From a virus, in the IMG/VR virus record IMGVR_UViG_3300020159_002019, positions 45,291 through 109,290 of that record: 64,000 nucleotides of DNA; one strand, given 5' to 3'. Positions 33,256 through 59,035 of the stretch are shown one piece after another. Each line of letters opens with the position of its first letter. Position 1 is the stretch's first letter. Both the position numbers and the translations under genes were made by a program. Below the pieces are notes generated by a model. That model had not been told where the DNA came from. It searched no databases and saw nothing but the letters and a program-made list of their open reading frames with translations.

Positions 33256-34113
33256 ATGGCAAAAATAGAAACATTAAAAGCAAAATTCCCTAATATAACC
33301 GAACAAACATTTATTCGTTTATTTGAGGGTGACAAGACATCTACTAAAAAGTATGCTGAATTTTTACTTTCCGCTTGGAATAGAAAAGGGACAAATTATG
33401 GTGGTTTAAGGGGTGTTGATGACTATATTAAATTGGTTGAGAATTTTGAGAAATTAACCCCTTATATTGATAATAAGGATATATACTCTTATGGAGATAT
33501 TCAATCAATAGTTGGTGTTGTTAAAATAGCTGAAGCCGAAAAAAATGAAAAATCTTTTGATAAAGATGAACACATTTCAGTTATTGAAGAAACTGAAGAT
33601 TATATCTTTTTGATACCTAAAACACACGTTGGTTCATTAAAATATGGTTCTAATACTAAATGGTGCACAGCGGCATCAACAAGTCCTGGAACTTTTAAAT
33701 CATATATTGATAGAGGTTTTTTAGCTTATTTAGTTGATAAGAAAAATAAAAAGACGAATAATCAAAATAAATTGGCTTTTTATTTTACAAATAAAGAAAA
33801 CTTACTTACACAAGTAATCCAAATCTTTAATCAATTAGATTCACTTGTAAATGAAAACCAAGTAATACAGAGTGGTTGGGATATTATGTTATTGAGTAAT
33901 CTTATAACTAAATTGAGGGTTTTCTTATTTGAGTTTAAGGAGAAAGAAAAAGTTAGGGTTGAAGTATCTAAAACAATTCAACAATTGAATCAAATCAATT
34001 ACGATAACTTCTTTAATGCTTTAAATACGTTAAAGATAAATCCTGAGAATGTTGAAGAATTGAAAAACGCTTTAGGGTTAGTTAAAACTTCAATGAAAAA
34101 AATCAAAGTATGA
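33256..34113 (+). CDS. KWC-motif protein 1
   Basis: 285 residues, no recognised family. An N-terminal helical part (1-110) is followed by a core: a strand with EETEDYIFLIP (about 112-122), then LKYGSNTKWCTAA with Lys-Trp-Cys at 135-137, then FLAYLVDKK. The same core occurs in the proteins at 41490 and 57857 and in altered form at 44159. After the core this copy lacks the WD strand seen in 41490 and 57857 and continues with helices. First gene of a three-gene operon transcribed from a host-type promoter inside the tRNA region, so it is probably expressed early. Confidence 0.7.
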   Translation: MAKIETLKAKFPNITEQTFIRLFEGDKTSTKKYAEFLLSAWNRKGTNYGGLRGVDDYIKLVENFEKLTPYIDNKDIYSYGDIQSIVGVVKIAEAEKNEKSFDKDEHISVIEETEDYIFLIPKTHVGSLKYGSNTKWCTAASTSPGTFKSYIDRGFLAYLVDKKNKKTNNQNKLAFYFTNKENLLTQVIQIFNQLDSLVNENQVIQSGWDIMLLSNLITKLRVFLFEFKEKEKVRVEVSKTIQQLNQINYDNFFNALNTLKINPENVEELKNALGLVKTSMKKIKV

Positions 34114-34460
34114 GGAGTGTAAAACAAATCAAAAAGTTAAGATATACTAATGATTGGGTGTCAAATGTTGATGATTCAAATATAACTTATCGTCTTTTTA
34201 CTTATAATGGTTTAACTTGGAATGTTATTTTAACTAACCGACAAGAATTAGGTGGTTGGACAATAAGGTTATGTAATAATGATGGTGATGAATTATACAT
34301 TTTTAATTCAGGTGTGAATAGAATGTCCATATCAATAAATGACGATTTAATTTACGAATTAGATGGTTGGTATTATGAAAATATAACTGAATTGAAGAAT
34401 AGGTTAGAAAACGATTTAATCGTATTATTAAGGAAATATGAGGAGTATATCAAAAATTAG
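34110..34460 (+). CDS. Small beta-rich protein, operon partner of KWC protein 1
   Basis: 116 residues starting MRSVKQIKKL, rich in Trp, Tyr and strands, with two Cys-free beta sheets predicted and a C-terminal helix. It overlaps the KWC gene by 4 nt (ATGA) and the next gene by 23 nt. No family recognised. Confidence 0.6.
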   Translation: MRSVKQIKKLRYTNDWVSNVDDSNITYRLFTYNGLTWNVILTNRQELGGWTIRLCNNDGDELYIFNSGVNRMSISINDDLIYELDGWYYENITELKNRLENDLIVLLRKYEEYIKN

Positions 34461-34770
34461 GGTAAGTGTAAAACAAGATTTTCAAGAATGGTTGGAAAAA
34501 ACTACCATTAGTAGATGGATGCCAAGACATAGAATAATATGTAATGATGGGTTTTCTATGTCAGTTCAGGGTGGTGAGTTTACATATTCAAACCCAAGAC
34601 AATTTGGTAGTAGTTTTACTGAAATGGAGATTGGGTTTCCTTCTGAGTATGAAGAATTGATTAGTAGTTATTCTGACTCTAATGAATATACTCAAACTGT
34701 TTATCCATATGTCCCAGTAAGTTTAATTATTGAAGTGATTGAAAAACACGGAGGAATAAAAAAAGATTAG
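34438..34770 (+). CDS. Small hypothetical protein, third gene of KWC operon
   Basis: 110 residues starting MRSISKIRVSVK, with the same ATGAGGAGT start context as the upstream gene. Contains RWMPRHRIICNDGFSMSV and an acidic C-terminal part. No motif recognised. Confidence 0.55.
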   Translation: MRSISKIRVSVKQDFQEWLEKTTISRWMPRHRIICNDGFSMSVQGGEFTYSNPRQFGSSFTEMEIGFPSEYEELISSYSDSNEYTQTVYPYVPVSLIIEVIEKHGGIKKD

Positions 34771-34787
34771 AAAAAAATAAAAAAAGA

Positions 34788-34818
34788 TTTGACAAGTTAA
34801 AAAAAAATGTTATCTTTG
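34788..34818 (+). promoter_or_regulatory. Bacteroidota-type promoter with conserved leader
   Basis: TTTGAC at 34788 and TATCTTTG at 34811-34818, spacing 19. The ~70 nt that follow (AAATGGGATATG, then GATTTCC, then ACAAAAACAAAAAAACAAAC) are closely matched after the promoter at 40016. Confidence 0.8.
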
Positions 34819-34897
34819 TATAACAAATGGGATATGAAAATATTTTTTAGATTTCCTTGACAAAAACAAAAAAACAAACTATTTATAAATTAAAGAT

Positions 34898-35008
34898 ATG
34901 AAAAACACGAATAAAAATATGACTATGGTTGTGAAAGCAACGGCAAAAGGTGGGAATAGAAATACCACACTTGGTTTAGGGCGTGTTATGTCTTTAATGG
35001 ATAGATAA
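34898..35008 (+). CDS. Possible 36-residue basic peptide
   Basis: ATG at 34898 opens MKNTNKNMTMVVKATAKGG, ending MSLMDR. It lies between a strong promoter and a terminator with no other content, in the same arrangement as the frame at 40122. A real short peptide or the spacer of a small RNA are both possible. Confidence 0.45.
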   Translation: MKNTNKNMTMVVKATAKGGNRNTTLGLGRVMSLMDR

Positions 35009-35032
35009 TACAATAATATAAAAAGATATATT

Positions 35033-35069
35033 AAAAACCCTGAACCATAAAAAAGTTCAGGGTTTTTTT
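35033..35069 (+). terminator. Rho-independent terminator
   Basis: AACCCTGAAC pairs with GTTCAGGGTT and is followed by seven Ts. It closes the 34898 unit. Confidence 0.9.
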
Positions 35070-35077
35070 ATTTATAA

Positions 35078-35149
35078 TCCAGATTAGTTTAATTGGGAAA
35101 ACACGTCTCTTGTAAAGATGAAAAGTTGGTTCGAATCCGACATTTGGAT
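35078..35149 (+). tRNA. tRNA-Thr (TGT)
   Basis: Acceptor TCCAGAT/ATTTGGA, D-stem GTTT/AAAC, anticodon loop CTTGTAA on CGTCT/AGATG, T-stem GTTGG/CCGAC. CCA not encoded. Confidence 0.85.
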
Positions 35150-35199
35150 CAAAGAAAATAGTAAAAAATTAATTAAAAATATGAAACGAAAACAGTAGG

Positions 35200-35232
35200 G
35201 TGTATGATCAATTAGGAATAGGTTGCATACAC
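35200..35232 (+). other. Short hairpin between tRNA genes
   Basis: GTGTATG pairs with CATACAC around a 19-nt loop. It lies in the 106-nt gap between tRNA-Thr and tRNA-Lys, which otherwise holds only a 5-codon ATG frame. Confidence 0.4.
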
Positions 35233-35255
35233 TAAAAATTAAAAAAAATGTATAT

Positions 35256-35343
35256 GCACCTATGGCTTAATTGGTAGAGCAACCGGCTTTTAACCGGTGG
35301 GGTAGACGAAAGTCCGTTGAAGGTTCGAGTCCTTCTGGGTGCA
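35256..35343 (+). tRNA. tRNA-Lys (TTT) with long variable arm
   Basis: Acceptor GCACCTA/TGGGTGC, anticodon loop CTTTTAA on ACCGG/CCGGT, T-stem GAAGG/CCTTC. About 20 nt lie between anticodon and T stems, forming an arm capped by GAAA (GAC-GAAA-GTC). Lysine tRNAs normally have a 4-5 nt variable loop. Confidence 0.85.
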
Positions 35344-35349
35344 CAATTT

Positions 35350-35422
35350 ACTTTCGTAGCTTAATTGGTAAAGAAACTAACTCTTAATTAGTGTGATGTG
35401 AGTTCGAGTCTCACTGGAAGTA
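35350..35422 (+). tRNA. tRNA-Lys (CTT)
   Basis: Acceptor ACTTTCG/TGGAAGT, anticodon loop CTCTTAA on ACTAA/TTAGT, T-stem GTGAG/CTCAC. CCA not encoded. Confidence 0.88.
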
Positions 35423-35449
35423 CTAAATGTTATTTGAAATATTATAAAT

Positions 35450-35522
35450 TGGGATGTAACTCAGAGGCTAGAGTGTTTGCCTGTTAAGCAAAAAGTCGAG
35501 ATATCGTAATTCTCCATCCCAG
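35450..35522 (+). tRNA. tRNA-Asn (GTT)
   Basis: Acceptor TGGGATG/CATCCCA, D-stem ACTC/GAGT, anticodon loop CTGTTAA on TTTGC/GCAAA, discriminator G. T-loop atypical (ATCGTAA). Confidence 0.88.
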
Positions 35523-35583
35523 CAAAAATTGAAAGATAAACGTATGAAACAAAGGAATGTAGTGGTTTATTAAGTAAATATAT

Positions 35584-35655
35584 GGCTCTATCGTTTAACG
35601 CATAAGACATTTCTCTTCTAAAGAAAGAATAGGGGTTGGATTCCCTTTAGAGCCA
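35584..35655 (+). tRNA. tRNA-Arg (TCT)
   Basis: Acceptor GGCTCTA/TAGAGCC, anticodon loop CTTCTAA on TTTCT/AGAAA, T-stem AGGGG/CCCTT with loop TTGGATT instead of TTCRANN. CCA not encoded. Confidence 0.85.
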
Positions 35656-35687
35656 CAGCAATCCAAGTTCGATTCTTGGTGGGAGTA
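35656..35687 (+). pseudogene. 3' half of a tRNA gene
   Basis: Directly after tRNA-Arg, CCAAG-TTCGATT-CTTGG forms a T-arm followed by TGGGAGT and A73. No matching 5' half (ACTCCCA) precedes it, because the region upstream belongs to tRNA-Arg. A remnant of recombination within the array. Confidence 0.7.
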
Positions 35688-35696
35688 CAAAAAAAT

Positions 35697-35767
35697 ACCT
35701 TCTTAGTTAAATGGGAGAATATCTGTTTTACATACAGAAGATAACTGTTCGATTCAGTTAGGGGGTA
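35697..35767 (+). tRNA. tRNA-Val (TAC)
   Basis: Acceptor ACCTTCT/AGGGGGT, anticodon loop TTTACAT on TCTGT/ACAGA, T-stem AACTG/CAGTT. CCA not encoded. Confidence 0.85.
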
Positions 35768-35777
35768 CAAAAAAAGA

Positions 35778-35808
35778 TTTGATTTTTTAAAAAAAATTAT
35801 TATCTTTA
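35778..35808 (+). promoter_or_regulatory. Bacteroidota-type promoter (weaker -7 box)
   Basis: TTTG at 35778 and TATCTTTA at 35801-35808, spacing 19, just before tRNA-Ala. Confidence 0.6.
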
Positions 35809-35819
35809 AAAAACAATAT

Positions 35820-35892
35820 GGGGTTATGGTATAGTTGGCGAACACAGTAGCTTTGCAAGCTTCAGTCCCGAGTTCAAATCTCGGTAGCTCCA
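35820..35892 (+). tRNA. tRNA-Ala (TGC)
   Basis: Acceptor GGGGTTA/TAGCTCC, anticodon loop TTTGCAA, T-stem CCGAG/CTCGG. One mismatch in the anticodon stem. CCA not encoded. Confidence 0.85.
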
Positions 35893-35895
35893 CAA

Positions 35896-35965
35896 TGTTT
35901 CACTTAGAATAAAAACAAACGCTTAATAGCAACAAACTCTTAATTTGTCAATTATTAGTGAAACA
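35896..35965 (+). ncRNA. Structured element A (terminal stem TGTTTCACT/AGTGAAACA)
   Basis: A perfect 9-bp terminal stem encloses 52 nt with an inner hairpin ACAAA-CTCTTAA-TTTGT shaped like a Lys(CTT) anticodon arm. There is no T-arm. It shares its first part (TTTCACTTAGAATAAAAA) and last part (CAATTATTAGTGAAA) with element B at 36051, and the second pair of the terminal stem covaries (G-C here, A-T there). Confidence 0.6.
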
Positions 35966-35968
35966 AAT

Positions 35969-36039
35969 GTCGATATAGTTAAATGGGATAACACCCCTCT
36001 CATCAAGGGAAGTTATTGGTTCGAATCCAGTTATCGATA
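35969..36039 (+). tRNA. tRNA-Met (CAT), elongator-type
   Basis: Acceptor GTCGATA/TATCGAT, D-stem GTTA/TAAC, anticodon loop CTCATCA. It lacks the initiator mismatch. It could alternatively be the Ile2 tRNA that is modified to read AUA. Position 37 is C, which is unusual. Confidence 0.8.
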
Positions 36040-36050
36040 CCCTGAAATAA

Positions 36051-36127
36051 TATTTCACTTAGAATAAAAAACTATTTGAATTTATCCTCCAATGGAGGGT
36101 GTATTTAATCCAATTAATAGTGAAATA
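36051..36127 (+). ncRNA. Structured element B (terminal stem TATTTCACT/AGTGAAATA)
   Basis: The same architecture as element A: a 9-bp terminal stem, the same conserved ends, and an unrelated middle containing the hairpin ATCCT-CCAATGG-AGGGT. It lies between tRNA-Met and tRNA-Gly. No T-arm. Confidence 0.6.
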
Positions 36128-36130
36128 AAT

Positions 36131-36203
36131 GCGGGTGTAGCTCAATTGGTAGAGCGCGACCTTGCCAAGGTCGAGGCTGTGGGATCGTACCCCATCACCC
36201 GCT
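36131..36203 (+). tRNA. tRNA-Gly (GCC)
   Basis: Acceptor GCGGGTG/CACCCGC, anticodon loop TTGCCAA on CGACC/GGTCG, T-stem GTGGG/CCCAT with T-loop ATCGTAC. CCA not encoded. Confidence 0.9.
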
Positions 36204-36419
36204 CATTGAGTAAGAGGTACTCAGTAGTCTTTAATCCAAGACTCATTTAACAATGGATTCGCTTAAATCGGACAGCGAAAATGCCGGTTCTTAGGAATAA
36301 GGAGCGAAGCACACCTCCCCTTCGTAGTGTGACTATTTTTAATGGGGATGCCCTTCAGGTTTTTGGAAAGAAGAAAACCGAAATGACTACTCACCTAAAT
36401 CTCAAGGTGGGGTAAACAA
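36204..36419 (+). ncRNA. Candidate ~215-nt structured RNA between two glycine tRNAs
   Basis: No coding frame fits. Visible pairings: CATTG/CAATG enclosing two hairpins (GAGTA/TACTC and AGTCTT/AAGACT); TTCGCT/AGCGAA; CTTA-GGAA-TAAG, with a GNRA-type tetraloop; CACAC/GTGTG; GGTTTT/AAAACC; CACCT/AGGTG; and a long-range AGTAGTC/GACTACT. A possible CCCC/GGGG pseudoknot is also present. This density of stems in an AT-rich genome suggests a functional RNA. It is not a tRNA, and I see no tmRNA, RNase P or group I intron signature. Confidence 0.55.
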
Positions 36420-36491
36420 GCGAGTATCGTATAATGGCTATTATACCACGCTTCCAACGTGGGGATGTGATTTCGATTATCACTACTCGCT
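36420..36491 (+). tRNA. tRNA-Gly (TCC)
   Basis: Acceptor GCGAGTA/TACTCGC, anticodon loop CTTCCAA on CCACG/CGTGG, T-stem GTGAT/ATCAC. CCA not fully encoded (TCCG). Confidence 0.9.
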
Positions 36492-36504
36492 CCGGACGTT
36501 TTAG

Positions 36505-36542
36505 AAATCAGTAATATTTTTTTGGTATTACTGATTTTTTTT
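36505..36542 (+). terminator. Rho-independent terminator overlapping a promoter
   Basis: AAATCAGTAATA pairs with TATTACTGATTT and is followed by Ts. The loop contains the TTTG of the next promoter. Confidence 0.85.
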
Positions 36543-36552
36543 ATTACCTTTG
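36521..36552 (+). promoter_or_regulatory. Bacteroidota-type promoter of the YqeY gene
   Basis: TTTG at 36521 (inside the terminator loop) and TACCTTTG at 36545-36552, spacing 20, placed 17 nt before the ATG at 36569. Confidence 0.75.
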
Positions 36553-36568
36553 TAGAAATAATAAAATT

Positions 36569-37018
36569 ATGACACTTAAAGAACAAATTCAAAAAGACTT
36601 CATCACGGCTATGAAAAATAAAGATGAATGGACTAAATCCGCTCTAAGTGGGTTAAAATCAAAGATTACTGAAGCTGAAAAAGTTAATGGAACAGAATTA
36701 TCAGACGCTGATATTCTTAAACTAATTAATAAAGGTATTAAACAAAGGGAAGAATCTGCTACTATATATAGTGAAGCAGGTCGTCCGGAATTAGCTGCGA
36801 AAGAATTACTTGAACTTAATGTTTTAATGGATTATATGCCAGCTCAAATGACTGATGAGGAAATTGAAACGGCTGTAAGGGAAATTATTGTTGGATTACC
36901 TACAATGACAAACGCAAATGCCTTGTCAGGAAAAACTATGGGTGAATTCAATAAAAAGTATCAAGGAATGGCTGATTCTAAAAGAGTTTCAGAAATTATA
37001 AAAAAAGTTGTATCATAA
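36569..37018 (+). CDS. yqeY: YqeY (GatB/YqeY domain) protein
   Basis: 149 residues. It matches the family over its whole length: SALSGLKSKITEAEK, then GIKQREES, ELLELNVLMDYMP and the C-terminal GKTMGEFNKKY/SKRVSEIIKK part. The domain resembles the tRNA-binding tail of GatB amidotransferase; YqeY itself has no settled biochemical role. A tRNA-binding domain protein encoded between two phage tRNA arrays suggests a job in tRNA handling, which is inference. Confidence 0.88.
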   Translation: MTLKEQIQKDFITAMKNKDEWTKSALSGLKSKITEAEKVNGTELSDADILKLINKGIKQREESATIYSEAGRPELAAKELLELNVLMDYMPAQMTDEEIETAVREIIVGLPTMTNANALSGKTMGEFNKKYQGMADSKRVSEIIKKVVS

Positions 37019-37062
37019 TTTGACTTTCAATAAACAATAAACTATAATTAAAAAACAAAAAT

Positions 37063-37173
37063 GGGGGGTAATTTTTTAGTGGATTGAAAATACCACTTAG
37101 AATAACTCTAAACTATATTGGTAAAAGTTTGACTAATAATCAAATATAGAAGGTTCGAACCCTTCACCCCCCG
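37063..37173 (+). tRNA. Oversized tRNA-like gene (111 nt) with expanded central region
   Basis: Acceptor GGGGGGT/ACCCCCC, D-arm-like TTTT/AAAA and T-arm GAAGG-TTCGAAC-CCTTC are present. A stem TACCA/TGGTA in the anticodon position encloses 23 nt instead of 7, including a TTAGA/TCTAA hairpin. A long variable arm (TTTGA-CTAATAA-TCAAA) follows. It contains CACTTAGAATAA, which is also in elements A and B. If an insertion were removed, a 7-nt loop CTTAGAA (Leu TAG) could form; discriminator G would fit Ser better. Confidence 0.55.
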
Positions 37174-37203
37174 CAATTATTAACAATATAAAACATAAAG
37201 TAT

Positions 37204-39042
37204 ATGACAGAATTAGTAAAAGAAAAAATGAAGTTATCTAACACATTAGATACATTACAATTTTTAAGAACCGCTAAAGGTGCTTCAGATGAAAAAATTC
37301 ATTTGGCTTTAGATAAAGCCTATGCTGAAACAACATCTAATGGAGTTGAGGAAATGTTATATAGAATTATGTTTCATATTGGAGATATTTCAAGAAAGCA
37401 TAATATCTTTAAAGAATTTGAAATCAACTCAGAAGTGGGTGGGGCTCAAGAAAGAAAGATATTTAGATCTTGTGTAAGATGGATGCAAAAGAACACCCCA
37501 GAGTTCTTGCATAACAACTTAAAGTTAGTAGTTGAATATACTTCATACGAAACTTTAATGTATTACCAAGTAAGCACAAACAGATATTTGGGTAATGTTA
37601 TGGGTGTTGAAAAACTATTCATTGACAACCAATATTTGTTCCCTTTCTTAAAGTCTGAGATTGAATCAGGTGTAAACTTGAACTTAATCGCAAGACACTT
37701 ACCTAAATATGCTACAGGTAAGCAAAGAACAACTAAAAAGACTTTAGTTGGTAAAAGGGGAAGAACTGAATTCAGTTGGACATTACCGAAAGGTAAGACT
37801 TGGGTTAAAATCAATGGAAACCTTGTAAATGGTGATAAAATCACGGTTAAGCATGGTGATGTTGCTGAATACCCAAGAGAAAAGAAATCTGAGTCTTTAA
37901 CAAGACAAAGTTTCTTAAACAAGTGGATTAAGGATTTCTGTGATTATATGAAATGGACAATCGCTGATTACAAAGCATTTAAGGGTAAGCAGAATACTGC
38001 TGAACAAAAAATGTCAAGTGGTTCAGTAATGTCTATGACAGAAGATCAATTTAATGGTTTCTTGGATTCTTTGACTGCGGGACAAAGAAAAAGGGTTGTA
38101 AAATCATTGGGTAATCCTAAATGGGGACAGCTAACTAAATGGTATAAGGCTTGGGAAGATGACCAATCTAACTTAGCTGAAAAAATTAGAAAAGCTACCA
38201 CACCTGCTGAAAAAGCCGCTTTGATGAAAGATTTCAAAGTTAAAACAACAGGGGATCAAACAATTGATTTGTTGGCTGAAATGCTTGGTAAGGGTTTAAA
38301 TGCTCAACAAGTAAATAACAACTATCAATCAATGATTGAGAGAATGAACATTAAACATTCAGTATTTCCAATTATTGACGGTTCGGGTTCTATGGATAGT
38401 ACTTTTGACCATAACGGTGTAGGAATATCTAACAGACAAGTAGCATACGCAATGGCAATTGCATTTACTACAATGAATCCAAACCCAAGATTTAGAAATA
38501 CTTATGGTTGGTTCTCAAACGACTTTAAGGTTTTTGGTAGGTCTGAGTATGGTGATACCTATATATCTATGTTTAAGAATGTGGATAAGTATGTAAGTCA
38601 TACAAAGACTTTTACTGAGAATTACAGATTACTTATGGAGACAGATCCAAAAGAAATTACATCTACAAATATGTTTGCTTCGGTAGAATATTTTGTAAAT
38701 CTTGTGAAAACAGGAAGATGTACTATGGAAGAATTACCTGAAACATTACTTTATCTTACAGATAATGAGTATAATTCAGGTAAATCACCAAAAGAAGCGG
38801 TTACTTTAGCCAATTCAATTGGATGGAGACCAAAGTTAATTTTTTGGGGTATTACCACAATGACTCATTCTATTAAGGAAGAGTTAAAATATACTCCGAA
38901 TGGTTTATTCATCGGTGGTTTCAACGAAAGTTGTTTATCACAAATCTTGGATGGAATCTCAAAAGATTCAATAAATCCAGAAGATGAATTGTGGGCTATT
39001 TATAACGATATTCGTTATAGTGTAATTAAAGTAGGTGAATAA
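37204..39042 (+). CDS. vWA-domain protein (DUF2828/TROVE-like architecture)
   Basis: 612 residues. An N-terminal helical domain (1-~330) is followed by a von Willebrand A domain with a complete MIDAS DGSGS (Asp392, Ser394, Ser396), a TSTNM segment near 500 and LLYLTDNEYN near 525. Helical repeats before a vWA domain are seen in DUF2828 and in Ro60/TROVE RNA-binding proteins. Bacterial Ro proteins bind Y RNAs with tRNA-like parts, so a position between tRNA arrays is suggestive. I cannot tell which family it belongs to. Confidence 0.75.
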   Translation: MTELVKEKMKLSNTLDTLQFLRTAKGASDEKIHLALDKAYAETTSNGVEEMLYRIMFHIGDISRKHNIFKEFEINSEVGGAQERKIFRSCVRWMQKNTPEFLHNNLKLVVEYTSYETLMYYQVSTNRYLGNVMGVEKLFIDNQYLFPFLKSEIESGVNLNLIARHLPKYATGKQRTTKKTLVGKRGRTEFSWTLPKGKTWVKINGNLVNGDKITVKHGDVAEYPREKKSESLTRQSFLNKWIKDFCDYMKWTIADYKAFKGKQNTAEQKMSSGSVMSMTEDQFNGFLDSLTAGQRKRVVKSLGNPKWGQLTKWYKAWEDDQSNLAEKIRKATTPAEKAALMKDFKVKTTGDQTIDLLAEMLGKGLNAQQVNNNYQSMIERMNIKHSVFPIIDGSGSMDSTFDHNGVGISNRQVAYAMAIAFTTMNPNPRFRNTYGWFSNDFKVFGRSEYGDTYISMFKNVDKYVSHTKTFTENYRLLMETDPKEITSTNMFASVEYFVNLVKTGRCTMEELPETLLYLTDNEYNSGKSPKEAVTLANSIGWRPKLIFWGITTMTHSIKEELKYTPNGLFIGGFNESCLSQILDGISKDSINPEDELWAIYNDIRYSVIKVGE

Positions 39043-39054
39043 CCTACTTTTTTT
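39028..39054 (+). terminator. Terminator overlapping the stop codon of the vWA gene
   Basis: AAAGTAGGT pairs with ACCTACTTT and is followed by Ts. The TAA stop lies in the loop. It may work for the convergent minus-strand gene as well. Confidence 0.8.
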
Positions 39055-39271
39055 ATGCCTTTATTTTAACCACAACCTCACCTTCATTATTAGTGGTTAG
39101 ATAATATTCTTTTTTGTTTGTAAATCCATATTTTTTAGATATGTTTGATTCTATCCTTTTTTTGGTTGATGGTGTGTTAGCAAATGTAATATGTGGTTGA
39201 ACATATTCATCTTTGAATTGTTCCATTTTATTTACCGTTTCTTTAATAATTCTCTTAATTAAATTTTTCAT
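39053..39271 (-). CDS. Small leader-bearing protein
   Basis: 72 residues starting MKNLIKRIIKETVNKMEQF, a basic amphipathic leader like those of the late proteins. The rest has PHITFANTPSTKKRIESN and a short beta C-terminus. Two overlapping ATAAATA motifs (TATTTAT on the coding strand) precede the start. Function unknown. Confidence 0.6.
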   Translation of the reverse strand: MKNLIKRIIKETVNKMEQFKDEYVQPHITFANTPSTKKRIESNISKKYGFTNKKEYYLTTNNEGEVVVKIKA

Positions 39272-39282
39272 ATAAATAAATA

Positions 39283-39338: not shown

Positions 39339-40004
39339 ATGTATAATAACAAAACAGATTTTAACAAATTCGCAACATCGCATATGGGTATATCGTCTTT
39401 ATACCTCGATGATCTTCAATCGTCAATGACACCTCACATCTTAGAAGAAAGACCGACAAGAGCAAATCTTATGTCAGTATTTGATAGATTGATGCAAGAT
39501 AGGATTATTTGGGTTGCCGGTGCGGTTGATGAGGGTATGTCACAAGTTATTCAAGCGCAATTGATTTACTTGTCAAACTCAGACCCTAAGAAAGAAATTA
39601 CGATGCACATTGACACTCCTGGTGGTTCAGTAAAGGCTGGATTATCAATCGTGGATGTAATGGATTATGTTAAACCTGACATTAGAACAATCAATACAGG
39701 TATGGCGGCATCAATGGGTTCAGTATTGTTAGGCGCTGGAACCAAAGGAAAAAGAATGTCTTTAAGATTTTCACAAACAATGCTACACCAATCTTCAGGT
39801 GGTGTGAGAGGAAATATTCAGGATGCTAGGATAACAATGATTGAATGGGAAAAAATAAATGATTTGTTATTTAATTTGTTAGGTGGGTATTGTGGTAAGG
39901 ATGCTATCCAAGTAAAAGAAGATGCTTCTCGTGATTTATGGTTAAGTTCTGAAGAAGCGTTGGCTTATGGGATAATTGACGAAATAATCAAACCAAAAAA
40001 ATAA
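39339..40004 (+). CDS. clpP: ClpP-like serine protease
   Basis: 221 residues. The catalytic triad context is complete: GMAASMGS with Ser125, TMLHQSSGG with His150, and SRDLWLS with the Asp. The N-terminus is ~20 residues longer than typical ClpP. Phage ClpP homologues can act in capsid maturation or host-protein turnover. No ClpX or ClpA ATPase is visible nearby, and this one is not next to capsid genes here. Confidence 0.9.
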   Translation: MYNNKTDFNKFATSHMGISSLYLDDLQSSMTPHILEERPTRANLMSVFDRLMQDRIIWVAGAVDEGMSQVIQAQLIYLSNSDPKKEITMHIDTPGGSVKAGLSIVDVMDYVKPDIRTINTGMAASMGSVLLGAGTKGKRMSLRFSQTMLHQSSGGVRGNIQDARITMIEWEKINDLLFNLLGGYCGKDAIQVKEDASRDLWLSSEEALAYGIIDEIIKPKK

Positions 40005-41489: not shown

Positions 41490-44162
41490 ATGATTATTAT
41501 TGAAGGAAAATTAGAAGATTTATCTAAGAAATATATACCGAAGTTTAATAGGGATTCATTTACTGAAGGTTTAACCCCTGAATCTGTTATTGAGCATTTA
41601 TATGTTTCAGATCCATCACCAACAAAGAAATACTTTGAGTGGATGATTAAAGAATGTTTGGGATTGATAGAACGTAATTATGTTATTAACAATGAAAAAA
41701 TAGCTAAACTTGTAACGGATATCCAAGAATTTGATAGAAATATTGATAAACTTAGTCAGGATTTTTTAGATTATAATAAAGAAGAAATTGGTGAAATTGC
41801 GTATAAGTTTTTAAATGGTAAGGCTTTAAAAGATATTGGTACATATAATTACGATATTTTAAGAAAAATAATACCTTCATTGGTAGAATATAAGACAGAA
41901 AGTCAAAGAAGAAGATTGGCTAAAGAAGGTGCTAAAATTATATTTCAAGATGAAAAATATGATGTTTATGAAATAGATACTTATGACGCTTCTTGTTTTT
42001 ATGGTCAAGGTTCTAAATGGTGTACAACTTATAAACAAAGTGATTCACATTTTAAATCATATGGTACTGGTAGGAATAAATTATTATATGTTATTAGTAA
42101 AACTAAGACAAAAGAAACTGATCCTCAATTTTATAAGATTGCTATAAATATAAGGTATGTTGATGAACAAATAACATTTTGGGATGCTCCTGATAATAGT
42201 TTTAATGGTTGGAAATATTTTAGGGAACAAGATCCAAATATTTTAACTTTTTTGATTTCTTATATTAAAGAAAAGAATCCTGAAGGATATCTTAAAATGA
42301 TACCTGAAAACTATTTAATAACGATTAAACAAGAAGAAGAAGGTTTAAGTGATTTAAATATTATTTCGGTTTTAGATGTTGATAAATCTAGTGATTGGTT
42401 AAGTCATAAATATGGGTTAAATGGTGTGGATACTATTATTAAAAAATTGGATATATTACAAGGTAATGTCAGTAATTTTTTAGGTGATTATTTTACCAGT
42501 GATGAAAAAGAGTATTTAATCATAAAAAGAAGTGAGAAATTAGAACCAAGAGGTTTGTCGTGGAAAGATTTAGTTAAAAGTTATCACCAATTAGCAATTA
42601 CTCTAGATAGCTATCAACCAAGTTGGTTTATTGATAATTTTTTAGGTGGGGATAAAAACAAAGCGTTAGAAATTGGGACAAAAGAACCGATAGTACTATA
42701 TTGGTTGGCTAGAGGTAGTGTTAATATAAAGGATTTGGGTGATTTATATGGAGCTGAAAAACTTGTTAAATATATTACTAAAAGTAAAGTTAAAGTTATT
42801 TTTGGGTTAAGTGATATATTGGGTGGTTTATTTACAAATGAAACTCCAAAGAAAAGAAAGGAGTTATATGAAATTGCTTATAAGTATGATGGCAAAAAAA
42901 GGAATATTGAATTAGTCGATTATTTGTCTAGACGTATGGGTAAAGAGGGATTCATTGCGTCATTTAATAAAGGTGATGGATATGGAATTGAACCTGATTC
43001 ATATGGAAGAGCATTTTTATATGTTAAAAATAATAACCCTGATTTAATAAGTAATGTATTTAACATTGAGGATATTAGTAAAATCTTCAAGTCAAACGAA
43101 AAAGCGTTTACTTATTTATTAAAAAATTATGATGAATTTACACGTAATTTAGATATTAGTGATTTAACTGAAATGTTTAGTGGTGATGTTCCTGATAGTA
43201 TATATGGTAAATATATGAGTGATTGGGAAAAGAGGAATGTTGCGTCAATATATAGAATGAAAAATGGTTCTGAAAAACTATTTGATTTTGTTCTTAAAAA
43301 GTTTTCTTTTAAAAAGTTAGCCGATATCATCGGATATGATGGAGTATTTCAATTATTTTCTATTGTTAAGTTTAAAAAAGGTATAAACTATATGATTGAA
43401 AATAAGGTTGGCGATATCGCTATTGATGATATAAAAATAAAAGATGGTAAGGTGGTATTGGTTGTTAATGATAGAACGGATTATGCGTTTTTATTTGATG
43501 ATGAAGATTTGGCTAAAACTATATTGGGTGAAGATATGGATTGGGAACCGTATAACGATACTATTTATAATTGGTATGATCAAGTATGGGATTGTATGGT
43601 ACCAAAATCAATTGAACTGGTTAAGTCTTGGATTAAAAGTAATATAACAGATTATGAGAATGATGAAGGTGAAAAAATTGATTTAGGTGATACATATTTA
43701 AATGAAATAGATGATGATGATTTGGGTAAAATAATAGATGAGTACGATGAATTTAGGGATTTAAAAAATGAGATGAGTTGGGCTTATGATAATGGTTATA
43801 ATTCTGTTGCTCAAAGTGATATTATTAGTAAAACACAAGATCAATTAGAAGAATATTTAGGTAGTTATATAGGGTATGAACCAGTTAAAAAGAATGGTCG
43901 TAGATATAATAAAGAAACAGGTAATTCTGAATCATACGAATATACAGCATATGAATACTTATATAATGTGGGTGATGGTTTATATGATATATTATATGAT
44001 TATGCAACTACTAATTGGGGTCATTCGGTTGATTACAACACATATTTTAGCACTTTATTAAAGGATTCTGACCCTAAAAAGTTATATATTGATACTGAGG
44101 CTTATCCAGACGATAAAGAAATTTGTGAGTATTTTAATGATGATTTACCGGAAAGAATATGA
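41490..44162 (+). CDS. Large KWC-motif protein 2
   Basis: 890 residues, no recognised family. After a helical N-terminus, the KWC core spans about 150-250: a strand EKYDVYEID, then FYGQGSKWCTTY with Lys-Trp-Cys at 176-178, then LLYVISK, then FYKIAINI and ITFWDAPD. The rest (about 260-890) is a long Asp/Glu/Lys-rich helical region reminiscent of repeat proteins. It begins 23 nt after the tRNA array terminator with a TATTTAT start signal, and overlaps the next KWC-like gene by 4 nt. Confidence 0.7.
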   Translation: MIIIEGKLEDLSKKYIPKFNRDSFTEGLTPESVIEHLYVSDPSPTKKYFEWMIKECLGLIERNYVINNEKIAKLVTDIQEFDRNIDKLSQDFLDYNKEEIGEIAYKFLNGKALKDIGTYNYDILRKIIPSLVEYKTESQRRRLAKEGAKIIFQDEKYDVYEIDTYDASCFYGQGSKWCTTYKQSDSHFKSYGTGRNKLLYVISKTKTKETDPQFYKIAINIRYVDEQITFWDAPDNSFNGWKYFREQDPNILTFLISYIKEKNPEGYLKMIPENYLITIKQEEEGLSDLNIISVLDVDKSSDWLSHKYGLNGVDTIIKKLDILQGNVSNFLGDYFTSDEKEYLIIKRSEKLEPRGLSWKDLVKSYHQLAITLDSYQPSWFIDNFLGGDKNKALEIGTKEPIVLYWLARGSVNIKDLGDLYGAEKLVKYITKSKVKVIFGLSDILGGLFTNETPKKRKELYEIAYKYDGKKRNIELVDYLSRRMGKEGFIASFNKGDGYGIEPDSYGRAFLYVKNNNPDLISNVFNIEDISKIFKSNEKAFTYLLKNYDEFTRNLDISDLTEMFSGDVPDSIYGKYMSDWEKRNVASIYRMKNGSEKLFDFVLKKFSFKKLADIIGYDGVFQLFSIVKFKKGINYMIENKVGDIAIDDIKIKDGKVVLVVNDRTDYAFLFDDEDLAKTILGEDMDWEPYNDTIYNWYDQVWDCMVPKSIELVKSWIKSNITDYENDEGEKIDLGDTYLNEIDDDDLGKIIDEYDEFRDLKNEMSWAYDNGYNSVAQSDIISKTQDQLEEYLGSYIGYEPVKKNGRRYNKETGNSESYEYTAYEYLYNVGDGLYDILYDYATTNWGHSVDYNTYFSTLLKDSDPKKLYIDTEAYPDDKEICEYFNDDLPERI

Positions 44163-44944
44163 AAGAACTAATAAGAAAAATATTAAGGGAAGAGGTTGGG
44201 ATGAAATCCACCGATAAAGAATTTGATGAGATTAAGGATTCTTGGTTTTATAGATTAAGAAATTATACATTGGGAGATATTGTAGATAATTGGGATTCGT
44301 TAAAAAATAACGAAAATGATAACATACAAACAATAAAATATTTTGTTGAAAATCCTGATAAGATAACTGACTTAATTTATGATGAAAAAGGTTTGGAAGA
44401 TGGATATCACAGATTGACCGCTGCTAAAATATTGGGGATACCAAAATTTAAATATATAAAGGGAGAAACCATAACTGAAAGTCGTGTTAAGAAGAGTGAT
44501 AGGATTGATATTTATAGGGATGAGAACATAGTGGTTGTCGCCCCTTTAACCCACGAAGCATTACAAAAATACGCGAGTGAATGTGCTTGGTGTATAAATC
44601 GCGATAAATACGAATGGACACATTACCATCAAGGTAAGATTGCTGTTATAATACAAAGAAAACCTAAAAAAAATAAAATAGGTAAAACAGAACAAGAAAC
44701 TTCGGAGGAGATTTATGACTTTACCCATAATGGGACGAGAAATCAAGAAGAAGATCATTATTTTGATGACCTAATTAGTAGTATGAGTAATTTTGATACC
44801 AACATTGTTTATTATAACCCCAGTGAAAGTATTATCTATGATAAAGGTGATAATTGTATGAGTGATTTTGGTTATTCTATCTATGATATTCCATATATAA
44901 CTGAAGAAATTATAAAGAAAATAAAATCAACTTTAATGAATTAG
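44159..44944 (+). CDS. ParB-like motif plus degenerate KWC-motif protein
   Basis: 261 residues. It begins with a short leader (MKELIRKILREE). Residues about 60-100 contain EDGYHRLTAAKILG (Asp81-Arg85), the phosphate-binding motif of the ParB/sulfiredoxin fold. Residues about 120-180 resemble the KWC core, with Ala143-Trp144-Cys145 in place of KWC and a following KIAVIIQRK strand. Coupled by ATGA overlap to the 890-residue KWC protein. Its stop overlaps the convergent gene's stop. Confidence 0.65.
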   Translation: MKELIRKILREEVGMKSTDKEFDEIKDSWFYRLRNYTLGDIVDNWDSLKNNENDNIQTIKYFVENPDKITDLIYDEKGLEDGYHRLTAAKILGIPKFKYIKGETITESRVKKSDRIDIYRDENIVVVAPLTHEALQKYASECAWCINRDKYEWTHYHQGKIAVIIQRKPKKNKIGKTEQETSEEIYDFTHNGTRNQEEDHYFDDLISSMSNFDTNIVYYNPSESIIYDKGDNCMSDFGYSIYDIPYITEEIIKKIKSTLMN

Positions 44945-46657: not shown

Positions 46658-47149
46658 ATGGTTAAAGTATTAGCGAGATTTTTATTTTGGGGTATGTTGA
46701 AGAAACAAGGGATTACCGATTCTAATGTTGAGAATCAGGATAATACCTATTTCATATCAATTAATTCAACTGAAGGGAATGATATGGAGCCTTATTTTAA
46801 GGAAAAACATTCAAATGTATTGACATTATATTTTGATGATTGTAATGAATATAAAAAACATCCCATTATTGGTTGTTCTGGTGAGTTCTACGAGCAAATA
46901 CCTATGAGTGAAGAACAAGCGTTAGAGGTGGTTAATTTCGTTGAAAAAATGAATGAAAACTCTAAAGTGTATGTTCATTGTACTGCTGGCGTATCAAGAA
47001 GTGGTGCTGTTGGTGCATTTATAAATGATTATTTTGGTATGAGTTGGGATAAGTTTAAGTTTGATAACCCACAAGTGATTCCAAATTCACATATATCATC
47101 ATTGTTAAAGAAGGTGTATTATGGGAAATATCCTGACATATATAAATAA
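46658..47149 (+). CDS. Dual-specificity/tyrosine protein phosphatase
   Basis: 163 residues. The signature HCTAGVSRSG is intact (Cys108, Arg114), with a preceding general-acid candidate in YFDDCNE (about 67-73). Such enzymes remove phosphate from Tyr, Ser/Thr or RNA 5' ends. A host-directed role early in infection is plausible given the host-type promoter. Confidence 0.88.
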   Translation: MVKVLARFLFWGMLKKQGITDSNVENQDNTYFISINSTEGNDMEPYFKEKHSNVLTLYFDDCNEYKKHPIIGCSGEFYEQIPMSEEQALEVVNFVEKMNENSKVYVHCTAGVSRSGAVGAFINDYFGMSWDKFKFDNPQVIPNSHISSLLKKVYYGKYPDIYK

Positions 47150-53483: not shown

Positions 53484-53484
53484 T

Positions 53485-54873: not shown

Positions 54874-54883
54874 GGAAAAAAAC

Positions 54884-54960
54884 ATTTTCCCCCAATTATA
54901 TATAACTACCTAATATTGATTTTATTAGGTTTTTAATAAAAAATAATTGGGGGATTTTTT
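54884..54960 (+). terminator. Large structured terminator
   Basis: CCCCCAATTAT pairs with ATAATTGGGGG around an inner ACCTAATA/TTATTAGGT hairpin, followed by a T run. Confidence 0.8.
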
Positions 54961-55033
54961 ATTTTACCTTGTATTTTTTCTAAAAAATAGCATATTTATA
55001 AAGACAATAAAATAATTAAAAAAAAGATAAAAA

Positions 55034-57301
55034 ATGAGTAAAAATGGACTTCAATTGGCGAGTGATTTAAAATATTATTTAGATTATTCGAGATGGATTG
55101 ACGATGAAAATAGAACTGAAACTTGGGAAGATTCAGTTAATAGGGTAATGAACATGCATAAAACAAAGTATGCTGAATTTTTAAGTAACCCAAGATTTGT
55201 AGAATTATTTGAAAGGGCTGAAAATGCTTATAAGGATAGATTAGTATTAGGCTCTCAAAGAGCGTTACAATTTGGTGGTGATCCAATTATGAAACACAAT
55301 GCGAGGTTATATAATTGTACAGCAACTTATGTAGATAGAGTTAGAAGTTTTCAAGAAATAATGTATTTGTTATTATGTGGTTGTGGTGTTGGATTTTCGG
55401 TTCAATATAAACACATTGGTAAATTACCTAATTTAGCAAAAAGAAATAAAGGAACAAAAACATTTGTAGTTCCAGATTCAATTGAAGGGTGGAGTGATGC
55501 TTTTGGTATTTTAATATCTTCATATATTGAAGAAGGAAATGAAACGCCATTCCCTGAGTATCAAGGATACGAAATTAGATTTGATTTAAGTTTAATTAGA
55601 CCTGAAGGTGCTATGATTAGTGGTGGATTTAAGGCTCCTGGACCTGAAGGATTAAGAAAATCATTATTAAAATGTGAAGAATTAATTGAAAGAAACTTAA
55701 ATCAAGGGGTTAATTTGATGAAACCTATTATGGCTTATGACTTCATTATGTATATGGCGGATGCTGTATTATCTGGTGGTGTAAGAAGAAGTGCTACGAT
55801 TTGTTTATTCTCACCGGAAGATGATGAAATGATGAATGCTAAAGTTGGTAATTGGTATTATGAAAACGCACAAAGAGCTAGATCTAACAACTCAGCAGTA
55901 ATCAACAGAAACACTACAACAAAAGAACAATTCAATAAGATTTTTACATCAATTAAAGATTTTGGTGAGCCAGGTTTCTATTTTGTGGATGATGAAGATC
56001 AAGTAACTAACCCTTGTGTTGAGATTGGTTTATACCCACAAATTGAAGGTTTAAGCGGATTTCAAGGATGTAATTTAACTGAAGGTAATGGTGGTATGTG
56101 CACAACAGAAGAAAAGTTTTATGAGGCTTGTGAATCTTTATCAATCTTAGGGACATTACAAGCTGGTTATGCTGATTTCCCATACTTAGGTGAAGTAACA
56201 GAATCAATTTTCAGAAGGGAAGCTTTGTTAGGATGTTCATTTACAGGTTGGATGGCTAATCCACACATTATGATGAATCCTGAAATTCAAAGAAAAGGTG
56301 CTGAAATAGTTAAAAAGATAAACCAAGAGTTAGCTGAAATTATCGGTATTAATCCAGCGTCAAGAACGACTTGTGTTAAACCATCAGGAAATGCTTCGGT
56401 ATTATTAAAATCACCTTCAGGTTGTCACGGAGATCATGCACCAAGATACTTTAGGGTAATGCAAATCAATAAACAATCAGGTATCGGTAAATACTTAAAT
56501 GAAGAACATTCGTATTTGATTGAAGAATCTGTATGGAGTGCTAATAAAACGGATTATGTAGCATACATTCCAGTAATCGCTAATAAGAACGCTAAGTTCA
56601 AGAAAGATTTGGTTGGTATGAATCAATTAGAAGTGGTTAGAACAATCCAAAACAATTGGGTTGAGTATGGAACAAATCACGAAAGAAATGTTCAACCATA
56701 TTTAAGACATTCAGTTTCTAATACGGTTGAATTAGATTATTCGGATTATGATGTGGTAGAGGATTATTTATTTAACAATAGATTTGATTTCGCGGCTGTA
56801 TCATTCTTACCTTTAACAGGTGATAAAGATTTCAACCAAGCACCATTTACATCGGTATTATCAGGTGAAGATTTATATGATAAGTATGATGACGCAGCTT
56901 TCTTCGCTTCAGGTTTAATTGTTGATGGATTACACGCTTTTGATGGTAACTTATGGGAGGCTTGTGATTATGTAAACAAAAGGGACTTGAAATTACAAGG
57001 GACTAGGGTTGAGGCTTTAATTAAGAAAGATTGGATTAGAAGAGCTAAACAATTCGCTAAGAGATTCTTCAAGGGCGATATTAAAGAAATGGTATTATGT
57101 ATTAAAGATTTACATTTATATCATAAATGGGTTAGAATTAATCGTGAATTAAAACAAAGAGATTTTGATTTTAATGAAGCAATTAAGCAACCTGAATATG
57201 TTAATATGGATACTATGGGAGCTGTATCTTGTAGTGGTCCTAATGGATGTGAAATACCGGCAGACATAATGGAGGCTATGAAATCTTCAATAACTTCTTA
57301 A
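55034..57301 (+). CDS. nrdJ: Class II (adenosylcobalamin-dependent) ribonucleotide reductase
   Basis: 755 residues, a length like the monomeric L. leichmannii type. NCTATYVD near residue 97, CGCGVGFSVQ near 118, SGGVRRSATICLF near 250, EPGFYFVDDEDQ near 315, GCNLTEGNGG near 345, a KPSGNASVLL loop near 455 and C-terminal redox Cys in CSGPNGCEIP. No NrdB-type small subunit gene is present, so the radical must come from B12. It makes phage deoxynucleotides without oxygen dependence. Confidence 0.88.
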   Translation: MSKNGLQLASDLKYYLDYSRWIDDENRTETWEDSVNRVMNMHKTKYAEFLSNPRFVELFERAENAYKDRLVLGSQRALQFGGDPIMKHNARLYNCTATYVDRVRSFQEIMYLLLCGCGVGFSVQYKHIGKLPNLAKRNKGTKTFVVPDSIEGWSDAFGILISSYIEEGNETPFPEYQGYEIRFDLSLIRPEGAMISGGFKAPGPEGLRKSLLKCEELIERNLNQGVNLMKPIMAYDFIMYMADAVLSGGVRRSATICLFSPEDDEMMNAKVGNWYYENAQRARSNNSAVINRNTTTKEQFNKIFTSIKDFGEPGFYFVDDEDQVTNPCVEIGLYPQIEGLSGFQGCNLTEGNGGMCTTEEKFYEACESLSILGTLQAGYADFPYLGEVTESIFRREALLGCSFTGWMANPHIMMNPEIQRKGAEIVKKINQELAEIIGINPASRTTCVKPSGNASVLLKSPSGCHGDHAPRYFRVMQINKQSGIGKYLNEEHSYLIEESVWSANKTDYVAYIPVIANKNAKFKKDLVGMNQLEVVRTIQNNWVEYGTNHERNVQPYLRHSVSNTVELDYSDYDVVEDYLFNNRFDFAAVSFLPLTGDKDFNQAPFTSVLSGEDLYDKYDDAAFFASGLIVDGLHAFDGNLWEACDYVNKRDLKLQGTRVEALIKKDWIRRAKQFAKRFFKGDIKEMVLCIKDLHLYHKWVRINRELKQRDFDFNEAIKQPEYVNMDTMGAVSCSGPNGCEIPADIMEAMKSSITS

Positions 57302-57307
57302 TATATT

Positions 57308-57335
57308 AAAAGGTGGGGAAACCCACCTTTTTTAT
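57308..57335. terminator. Terminator between convergent genes
   Basis: AAAGGTGGG pairs with CCCACCTTT and is followed by Ts. Confidence 0.85.
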
Positions 57336-57742
57336 TGCATTAACCTAATACATTCTGGTCCAATACCTCTTTCAATTGATTCAGGTGTTGTGAGTTTTCT
57401 ACCACACCTACCACAACTTCCTTCGTGAAGGACTTGAACAATTGAAGGTATTTTATTAATATTATTAATAAACCAATTAAAAACTTTGAATGATGTTGCT
57501 TCACTACTAATTCTTGATTTTTTACTTGAATTAAAAACACCTTTTTTGATATACCCAATAAATGAATAATTACTTGTGTTGTCTGAACCAGTTAAAACTG
57601 ATACAAAATAAATATCATTATCCTTGGCTTTACGAACTCTATAAGTAAAACGATTACCTGTGTTGGTATTAGTTATCGTGAAAATAGCTTTCCCTGCAAA
57701 AATGAAGGTTTTTATGTCGTTGTTTTCTAATTGGTTAATCAT
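57332..57742 (-). CDS. DUF6011-like zinc-binding protein
   Basis: 136 residues from the ATG at 57742, chosen because a TATATTTG box lies 4 nt upstream. The C-terminus CGRCGRKLTTPESIERGIGPEC is the DUF6011 signature, with Cys residues placed to bind zinc. The N-terminal part is a beta domain. Function unknown. Confidence 0.78.
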   Translation of the reverse strand: MINQLENNDIKTFIFAGKAIFTITNTNTGNRFTYRVRKAKDNDIYFVSVLTGSDNTSNYSFIGYIKKGVFNSSKKSRISSEATSFKVFNWFINNINKIPSIVQVLHEGSCGRCGRKLTTPESIERGIGPECIRLMQ

Positions 57743-57745
57743 ACA

Positions 57746-57777
57746 CAAATATAATACCTTTATTTGGAACTACCAAA
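57746..57777 (-). promoter_or_regulatory. Bacteroidota-type promoter, near-leaderless
   Basis: On the minus strand, TTTG at 57777-57774 and TATATTTG at 57753-57746, spacing about 20, with the ATG 3 nt after the -7 box. Confidence 0.7.
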
Positions 57778-57856
57778 TTTATTTTTAAAATATTGATTTT
57801 CAGGTTTATTAAAAATAGATTTGTTTTTTTTATATTGTTTTCTTATTATTAAAAAT

Positions 57857-59035
57857 ATGGATATACTTTCTTTACAAATCGACTCAAAATACAAAAAATG
57901 GTTAAAAAATCTTTATGATGGTAGTGGCTTACACCCTTCATTCGTTTTTATGTGTAATAAACATAAACGATTGAGTGATAATATACCTATTGAATATCGT
58001 GATATTTTTAACTTTAAATCCGTAGATGATTTCATATCATATGTGGATAGTTTAGAATCTGAAACAGAAAAAGAAGAAACTATTAAAAATAGTGGATCTA
58101 CAACAATTTATGAAAATGAAGATTTTTTAGTGAAAAGAATTCATAATTTGGATGCTATGAAATTATATGGTAAGGGAAGTAAATGGTGTATTGCTTCTGA
58201 CGATATTAATATTTGGGATAAATATGAGAAGTATGGTGATATTTTCTTCTTGGTGTTTTCTAAAAAATTACCATACACAAGCCAATTTAATAAGTTTGTC
58301 GTTCAATTAAACAATCAAAAATATTTAACGATTTGGGATAGAACGGATTGTGCTTATGGGTCCAACATATTTGATTTAATTAATTTAGATGGTGAGATAT
58401 TCCGAAATCATTATAATTTAGAGATAGTGTCAAAACTAATACATTATATTTCAGATATTAATGTGTTAGATGTATTAGTTAATAATAACGCAATAATAGC
58501 GGGTGGTGCTCTAACATCTATTATATTGAATGAAAGAATAAATGATTTTGATATATGGTTTTCAAATGAAAACGACTACAAACAAGCTATTATTAATATG
58601 AATGTTTTATATATGACAAAGAAAAACCAATCTAATGATAATGTTTTTGAGTATATTAGTCATAGTAAATATACGACTACCAACGCTATAACATATACTA
58701 TTGATAATAAAAAATATCAATTCATTAGTCCATCCAGATATACTTTTGGTAATGTTGATACAATAATCAATCAATTTGATTTCACTTGTGTTATGTGTGG
58801 TGTGGATGTAAAAAATAAAAAATTAATACATAATGATAAGTTTTTTAGTGATGCTAAATCTAAAAAATTAATCATAAATAAAGGGTTAAAATCACCAGCT
58901 TCTTTATTGGATAGGATTGTTAAATACACCAAAAAAGGATATAGGGTTTCTAAAGAATCACAAAGAGATGCTCTAAGATTATTATCTAAAGTGACTGAAC
59001 AGGAAATAAATGACGTGACACTAACAATGTATTAA
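57857..59035 (+). CDS. KWC-motif protein fused to a CCA-adding-like nucleotidyltransferase
   Basis: 392 residues from the ATG at 57857. The N-terminal half has the KWC core: NEDFLVKRIH near 90, LYGKGSKWCIAS with Lys-Trp-Cys at 109-111, FFLVFSKK near 130 and FVVQLNNQ/LTIWDRTD near 145-160. The C-terminal half has AGGALTSIILNERINDFDIWF (Gly216-Gly217, Asp230-x-Asp232), the polymerase-beta nucleotidyltransferase motif in the arrangement of CCA-adding enzymes and poly(A) polymerases, then FDFTCVMCGV near 310. A tRNA 3'-end or antitoxin-like role is inferred, not shown. Its stop abuts the gp6 stop. Confidence 0.7.
   Translation: MDILSLQIDSKYKKWLKNLYDGSGLHPSFVFMCNKHKRLSDNIPIEYRDIFNFKSVDDFISYVDSLESETEKEETIKNSGSTTIYENEDFLVKRIHNLDAMKLYGKGSKWCIASDDINIWDKYEKYGDIFFLVFSKKLPYTSQFNKFVVQLNNQKYLTIWDRTDCAYGSNIFDLINLDGEIFRNHYNLEIVSKLIHYISDINVLDVLVNNNAIIAGGALTSIILNERINDFDIWFSNENDYKQAIINMNVLYMTKKNQSNDNVFEYISHSKYTTTNAITYTIDNKKYQFISPSRYTFGNVDTIINQFDFTCVMCGVDVKNKKLIHNDKFFSDAKSKKLIINKGLKSPASLLDRIVKYTKKGYRVSKESQRDALRLLSKVTEQEINDVTLTMY

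Follow-up and report, generated by a model that had tools for sequence, protein, structure and literature searches.

The KWC domain, a phage protein domain with a constant Trp-Cys core and variable C-terminal partners

The internal proteins of phage T4 form a diverse defence set whose members have only a capsid targeting sequence (CTS) in common (PMC3012670). The T4 protease gp21 cleaves after L/I-X-E, and the peptide it removes is this targeting sequence, which directs packaging; T4 propeptides span 7–65 residues (PMC9026906). Gad2, from a different setting, is counted among the verified anti-defence proteins (PMC10767833). Here we describe a family of phage proteins with likenesses to both. 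Four members, marked by a Lys-Trp-Cys (KWC) motif, are encoded on the forward strand of a 64,000-nucleotide stretch of DNA (the window), which comprises bases 45,291–109,290 of an IMG/VR virus record of 109,290 bases (IMGVR_UViG_3300020159_002019). The proteins are denoted by the window positions at which their genes start: 33256, 41490, 44159 and 57857.

A shared core in four window proteins and in phages

The four window proteins are confirmed to share one domain, their likeness lying far beyond chance. A profile built only from phages other than that of the window detected 33256 at E = 1.8e-32, 41490 at 1.8e-24, 57857 at 3.3e-17 and 44159 at 3.8e-11, bearing out the core that a reading of the window from sequence alone had placed in all four. 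The divergent 44159 had been left out of the eight-sequence seed profile, which included 41490, 33256 and 57857, and was found by it at 1.4e-8; aligned singly with hhalign to a 129-row family alignment, it scored a probability of 95.7 (E = 1e-8). A record-wide search returned exactly four copies in the entire 109 kb record.

The core follows the consensus [ED][DN]...P.T..[AS]S..YG.[GN]T[KR]WC[TI]......[FW]..Y...G.LxY...K ... K.A ... [WYF][DN]..D. Residues W136 and C137 are invariant in 129 aligned sequences, and the Trp-Cys pair is kept in all 163 unique domains; in the same alignment Y130, G131, Y150, K172, D75 and D195 are conserved at 96% or more (K172 at 98%, D195 at 99%). The loci were gathered with DNA scan patterns that contain WC. 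The invariance is nevertheless not a selection bias, because 26 unique domains match no scan pattern and both residues are present in 26 of these 26. The pair follows a full Y-G-x2-T-K in three of the window proteins and Y-A-S-E-C-A in 44159. The family also has in common a helical region ahead of the core, which carries a D[PT]S..KY motif. The motif as first described broadly stands, except that the FxKxA and WD elements, which had been limited to two members, extend family-wide, their Lys and Asp being nearly invariant.

KWC protein 1 (33256–34113, 285 amino acids) has no leader and consists of N-terminal helices, the core (residues ~75–198, 33478–33849 by the family alignment, with Lys-Trp-Cys codons at 33658–33666) and a short helical tail; its gene sits within a tRNA gene cluster. 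KWC protein 2 (41490–44162, 890 amino acids), assigned by profile, has a five-residue leader, N-terminal helices, a core placed by the family profile at 41829–42203 (KWC codons 42015–42023) and a 655-residue tail. The gene for KWC protein 3 (44159–44944, 261 amino acids) overlaps 41490 at its stop codon, and a matching gene pair is adjacent in contig L007; the divergent core of protein 3 (SECAWC), recognized by profile, lies at 44438–44731, with Trp-Cys codons at 44588–44593. KWC protein 4 (57857–59035, 392 amino acids from ATG) has no leader and joins a core (57998–58348, KWC codons 58181–58189) to a nucleotidyltransferase; its ATG start lies inside the program-called open reading frame (ORF) 57821–59035, which opens with TTG.

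Searches of Pfam and NCBIfam with 92 family representatives and the window proteins gave no model or real match for the KWC domain. PHROG 17056 matches 74 of the 92 representatives and PHROG 28193 matches 58; both are fragments of the family, to which PHROG attaches neither a function, a domain definition nor a link to partner diversity or leaders. The multi-copy family has gone unnamed so far because each member resembles an orphan. We regard it as solid that the KWC domain defines an undescribed, almost phage-exclusive domain family.

The profile search called for by the sequence-only reading yielded 225 KWC ORFs in 117 clusters, with no Pfam or NCBIfam family laying claim to the core. Searches by tblastn with cores led to Salicola phage SCTP-2, PA5oct-like Pseudomonas phages and Caulobacter phage CcrBL9. 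In IMG/VR, profile-guided scans yielded at least 476 and at least 338 confirmed relatives, and a like scan of ~85,000 bacterial and archaeal genomes produced four loci, all in metagenome-assembled genomes; the family is nearly confined to phages. Most of the large phage records covered hold 2–7 copies. Two or more copies occur in 18 of 30 records and a single copy in the other 12, the highest counts being seven in SCTP-2, six in each of two large IMG/VR records and five in another, compared with four in the record of the window. The SCTP-2 genes include a tandem array (L003, 9529–22473) of six KWC paralogues, five of them with near-identical leaders. A 148 kb contig (L134, 3–9336) carries an ORF of 2,129 codons with two KWC cores, followed by a 990-residue BspA-LRR KWC protein, and the Marseillevirus-like giant viruses LCMAC201/202 encode proteins that match the KWC fold, one of them annotated as an ankyrin repeat protein. 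Together, the L134 contig and the LCMAC201/202 matches suggest that the domain moves from phages to giant viruses or the reverse.

Predicted fold and comparison with PcfJ

The AlphaFold2 model of 33256, computed with 129 sequences, has a mean predicted local distance difference test (pLDDT) score of 92.3. Helices precede the core, which is arranged as two successive strands, a helix ending at YG, the KWC turn, a second helix and three strands. The alignment used to fold 57857 omitted nucleotidyltransferase fragments that had misaligned on the KWC core, and in the resulting AlphaFold model (mean pLDDT 81.7) the core elements are ordered as in 33256. For the two members modelled, the order of elements agrees with the proposal that the KWC segments occupy one fold. 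Extension of this fold to all four window proteins is supported but not proven by these predictions.

Foldseek found no solved structure in the PDB resembling the 33256 model, and sequence searches likewise returned none; a match to 3o3x (E = 0.0029) was discarded, as it spans only query residues 7–52, before the KWC motif. Among predicted viral structures, 22 match the model at E ≤ 1e-3, including the PA5oct structural protein and proteins of CcrBL9, phage ctWb16 and LCMAC201/202. A Cys-His-Asp protease or transglutaminase triad was rejected, the family alignment holding no conserved His.

The first predicted-structure match outside the family is a PcfJ-like protein (Foldseek E = 4.8e-4, probability 0.97), with a TM-score of at most 0.25 and differing flanking regions; another PcfJ matches the 33256 model at 5e-3. 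PcfJ (PF14284) and the KWC domain have equal G-x5-C spacing (EGxxMHHCV in PcfJ, YGxxTKWCT in KWC), but where PcfJ has invariant His, Thr-x-Glu and Gln, KWC proteins have Trp, Lys-x-Ala and Asp, and the N-terminal region and partners of PcfJ are unlike those of KWC proteins. The PcfJ motif E-G-x2-[ML]-H-H-C-V, with T-x-E and Q on later strands, does not occur in KWC proteins. No window member matches PF14284, and 2 of the 92 family members do so weakly, the best at 0.0028, below the cut-off. Profile alignments place Cys on Cys, but in a comparison of 52 PcfJ with 116 KWC sequences the score of 7.0 is not significant, shuffled columns reaching 17; homology to PcfJ by sequence was therefore dropped and only the fold resemblance kept. 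The KWC domain is at most PcfJ-like in fold, and no member of PcfJ. In Bacteroidota plasmids and phages, PcfJ genes adjoin PcfK-like or 'Cas9 inhibitor AcrIIA9' genes (L177, 1827–2201), which may place PcfJ itself in a counter-defence setting.

C-terminal partners and N-terminal leaders

Behind the constant core the C-terminus is variable, consisting mostly of protein-binding solenoids and in some cases of enzymes. Pfam assigned ankyrin repeats to 8 of the 92 representatives, LRV to 4, HEAT to 4, LRR to 2 and DUF4116 to 2, with BspA LRR, pentapeptide and Fic found in one each. Tails of at least 80 residues (n = 103) fall into 41 families unrelated by BLAST. One unrecognized family with swapped partners, as the sequence-only reading had it, is fully supported by the 117 clusters and 41 partner types.

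The individual partners proposed for the window proteins fared differently. The long helical repeats of 41490 were not confirmed, its 655-residue tail having no Pfam match and, among family tails, matching only that of its L007 orthologue. A ParB-like segment in 44159 finds at most a faint echo, in a Pfam ParB_N match at E = 0.013 in the L007 orthologue and none in 44159 itself. The nucleotidyltransferase of 57857 (58454–59011), by contrast, stood up in three ways. The tail matches PHROG families, one of which is named nucleotidyltransferase; the domain is homologous to Gad2 (31.6% over 152 residues), keeping the catalytic motifs AGG, ND-D (NDFDIW) and FDF (FDFT); and its model resembles the head-domain fold of CCA-adding enzymes (E = 3.7e-4, probability 1.00, over only ~200 alignment columns). 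The likeness to Gad2 is not full-length: the match stops with the nucleotidyltransferase domain, and no record covers 80% of 57857.

Many KWC proteins open with a short hydrophobic leader ending in (L/I)xE before G/S-R/K, as in MKFISILLKE↓GRKEDLKKKY (junction arrowed). Leaderless relatives start at that junction (M↓SKVDELREKY against LLKE↓GRKEDLKKKY, with M↓AKIETLKAKF in 33256). The pattern [LI]xE[GS][RK] near the N-terminus (residues 4–24) was present in 26 of 115 KWC representatives, compared with 5 of the 748 non-KWC proteins encoded at these loci and a mean of 0.7 in shuffled sequences. By N-terminus comparison, putative leaders are present in two window proteins: MIIIE in 41490 (41490–41504), a possible (L/I)xE prohead-protease site ahead of GKLEDLSKKY, and MKELIRKILRE in 44159 (44159–44191). 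Of 14 KWC-phage records, 9 encode a gp21-type protease (PF03420), those of SCTP-2 and PA5oct among them. The PA5oct KWC protein EST35_0205 is annotated 'structural protein, ESI-MS/MS', and its gene adjoins a terminase-like gene; candidate divergent KWC paralogues among the neighbours of EST35_0205 were rejected. Assignment of the leader as a prohead-protease site, which is based on sequence, is supported but not proven.

Other window proteins, at 14907, 16704, 30759 (and 12298), have leader-like starts with L/IxE or similar, namely MKIKITEEQYNTLLNE↓G, MKLIDLFNEILKE↓A and the similar MKKIVRLTENDIRRIVKRVMNE↓A, a type that recurs in contigs L008, L133 and L140; these may be further capsid-targeted proteins. 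A tandem array in L115 (575–6816) encodes four non-KWC proteins with the common N-terminus MKKLLESLLEQ-DIFKPPTEEEL.

Proposed role and known counterparts

The reading we favour, to which we give an even chance, is that KWC proteins are a phage effector family in which a constant Trp-Cys core is combined with swappable targeting tails, a subset being packaged in the head and injected. As to injection and function, we infer the following course. The proteins would act early in infection, the variable tail picking the host or defence target and the core supplying what all members do alike, be it a Cys-centred activity or docking to a single partner common to all. A large share of them, 41490 and perhaps 44159 included, would carry a short leader that targets them to the capsid; inside the prohead a protease of the T4 gp21 type would cut this off after (L/I)xE, and the proteins would be injected along with the DNA. 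Members without a leader (33256 and 57857) would be made in the cell, the partner of 57857 acting as a Gad2-type enzyme of tRNA-nucleotidyltransferase fold. The earlier suggestion of a recognition or enzymatic module, perhaps in counter-defence, is plausible given the invariant Trp-Cys pair, the solenoid and enzyme partners and the Gad2 homology, although not proven; KWC proteins probably help the phage to take over or disarm its bacterial host.

Several observations weigh against packaging and injection, or against an effector role in general. Half of the window proteins (33256 and 57857) lack a leader, and the 5 residues of MIIIE fall short of the T4 propeptide range of 7–65. The record of the window, a 109 kb fragment, yielded no PF03420 match. 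Leader state is clustered, changing only three times on the core tree, compared with 22–24 changes for shuffled labels; leader-bearing members are therefore not independent, and the leader enrichment P value (Fisher) overstates independence. An N-terminal (L/I)xE does not separate the PA5oct proteins detected by mass spectrometry (MS) (21 of 76) from the others (45 of 130), and for that phage the idea that the leader generally predicts virion proteins was rejected. Metabolic enzymes also figure in the PA5oct MS list, so that detection may be a matter of co-purification. Homology to Gad2 is limited to the nucleotidyltransferase half, a domain found in many unrelated phages, and no KWC member has a known function.

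A possible, if on balance improbable, alternative is that KWC proteins are made after infection and act in the cytoplasm, in counter-defence or host takeover, and that the leader-like N-termini are ordinary amphipathic helices with a chance LxE. The leaderless state of 33256 and 57857 and the lack of LxE enrichment among PA5oct virion proteins speak for it, as do the homology of the 57857 nucleotidyltransferase to Gad2, a verified anti-Gabija protein, and multi-copy arrays with variable tails, which fit an arms race. Chance does not readily explain, however, why the LxE↓G/S junction coincides exactly with the start of leaderless relatives, or why the leader motif is ~30-fold commoner than in neighbouring proteins. 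We consider it doubtful, in turn, that the family combines all of the following: a new Cys-centred catalytic or docking domain serving as a constant warhead, aimed at many host targets by exchangeable ankyrin, LRR, HEAT or enzyme tails and delivered by the virion after leader removal.

It is unlikely that the core is instead a docking domain for the head or scaffold core, with tails that are passive or structural cargo and with Trp and Cys serving folding. The structural annotation of the PA5oct protein, encoded among terminase and structural genes, the agreement of leaders with prohead-protease sites and the seven SCTP-2 paralogues are in its favour, but capsid proteins do not usually have tails this diverse (Ank, LRR, Fic, nucleotidyltransferase), many members are leaderless and are encoded in accessory regions, for example the window tRNA cluster, several phages have one copy only, and the S77 protease is absent from some.

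A service to phage translation or the tRNA set, such as tRNA maturation or protection, is highly improbable: it draws on the 27 tRNA genes of the window, with 33256 inside their cluster and 41490 directly after it, and on the CCA-adding (tRNA nucleotidyltransferase) fold of the 57857 partner, but tRNA proximity, also seen in the closest relatives (L008 and L007), is not kept in the wider family, and the usual partners are ankyrin, LRR or HEAT solenoids rather than RNA-binding domains. The link to tRNA biology raised by the sequence-only reading is weak, and a tRNA-linked function was rejected on the location of 33256 and 41490.

As for the gene setting, the source phage is suggested to be a T4-like myovirus, because gp6/gp25-like baseplate proteins, a primase, a DnaB-type helicase and a ribonucleotide reductase were read as putative products in the window. 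A 12.5 kb stretch of the window has no near DNA-level relative among 50,697 phage records. Inside the tRNA cluster, beside 10 tRNA genes, lies a YqeY/GatB-like protein (36569–37018, Pfam YqeY 4.9e-38), an unusual cargo for a phage; the cluster also holds a 612-residue protein (37204–39042) without a Pfam match and, by eye, with a von Willebrand/TROVE-like layout. Near the KWC genes are a ClpP protease (39339–40004, 3.1e-57) and a dual-specificity/tyrosine phosphatase (46658–47149, 1e-9).

Three known systems resemble the KWC family in part. Like T4 IPI–III and Alt, many KWC proteins have a short, here putative, N-terminal leader ending in L/I-X-E, and the T4 internal proteins are likewise a varied set, at least one of which has a known counter-defence role (PMC9026906, PMC3012670). 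Unlike them, KWC proteins have a folded core in common, the leader is optional and packaging is putative. Gad2, the anti-Gabija protein of Bacillus phage SPbetaL7, has a nucleotidyltransferase domain homologous to the tail of 57857; 57857 differs in having a KWC core in front and in lacking the C-terminal half of Gad2. Through the common core, 'hypothetical proteins' in their hundreds, whose tails are ankyrin, LRR or enzyme domains, become one system, its recognition predicts phage proteins that are possibly injected, and candidates for new counter-defence functions are supplied, including the Gad2-type enzyme in the window. Intracellular pathogens and giant viruses have ankyrin or LRR effector families that also combine a constant N-terminal domain with variable solenoid tails in multiple copies, whereas the KWC constant domain bears no relation to F-box or any other known module and occurs mainly in tailed phages. 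If the proposal is true, a warhead delivered by the virion would be the phage counterpart of those ankyrin effector arsenals.

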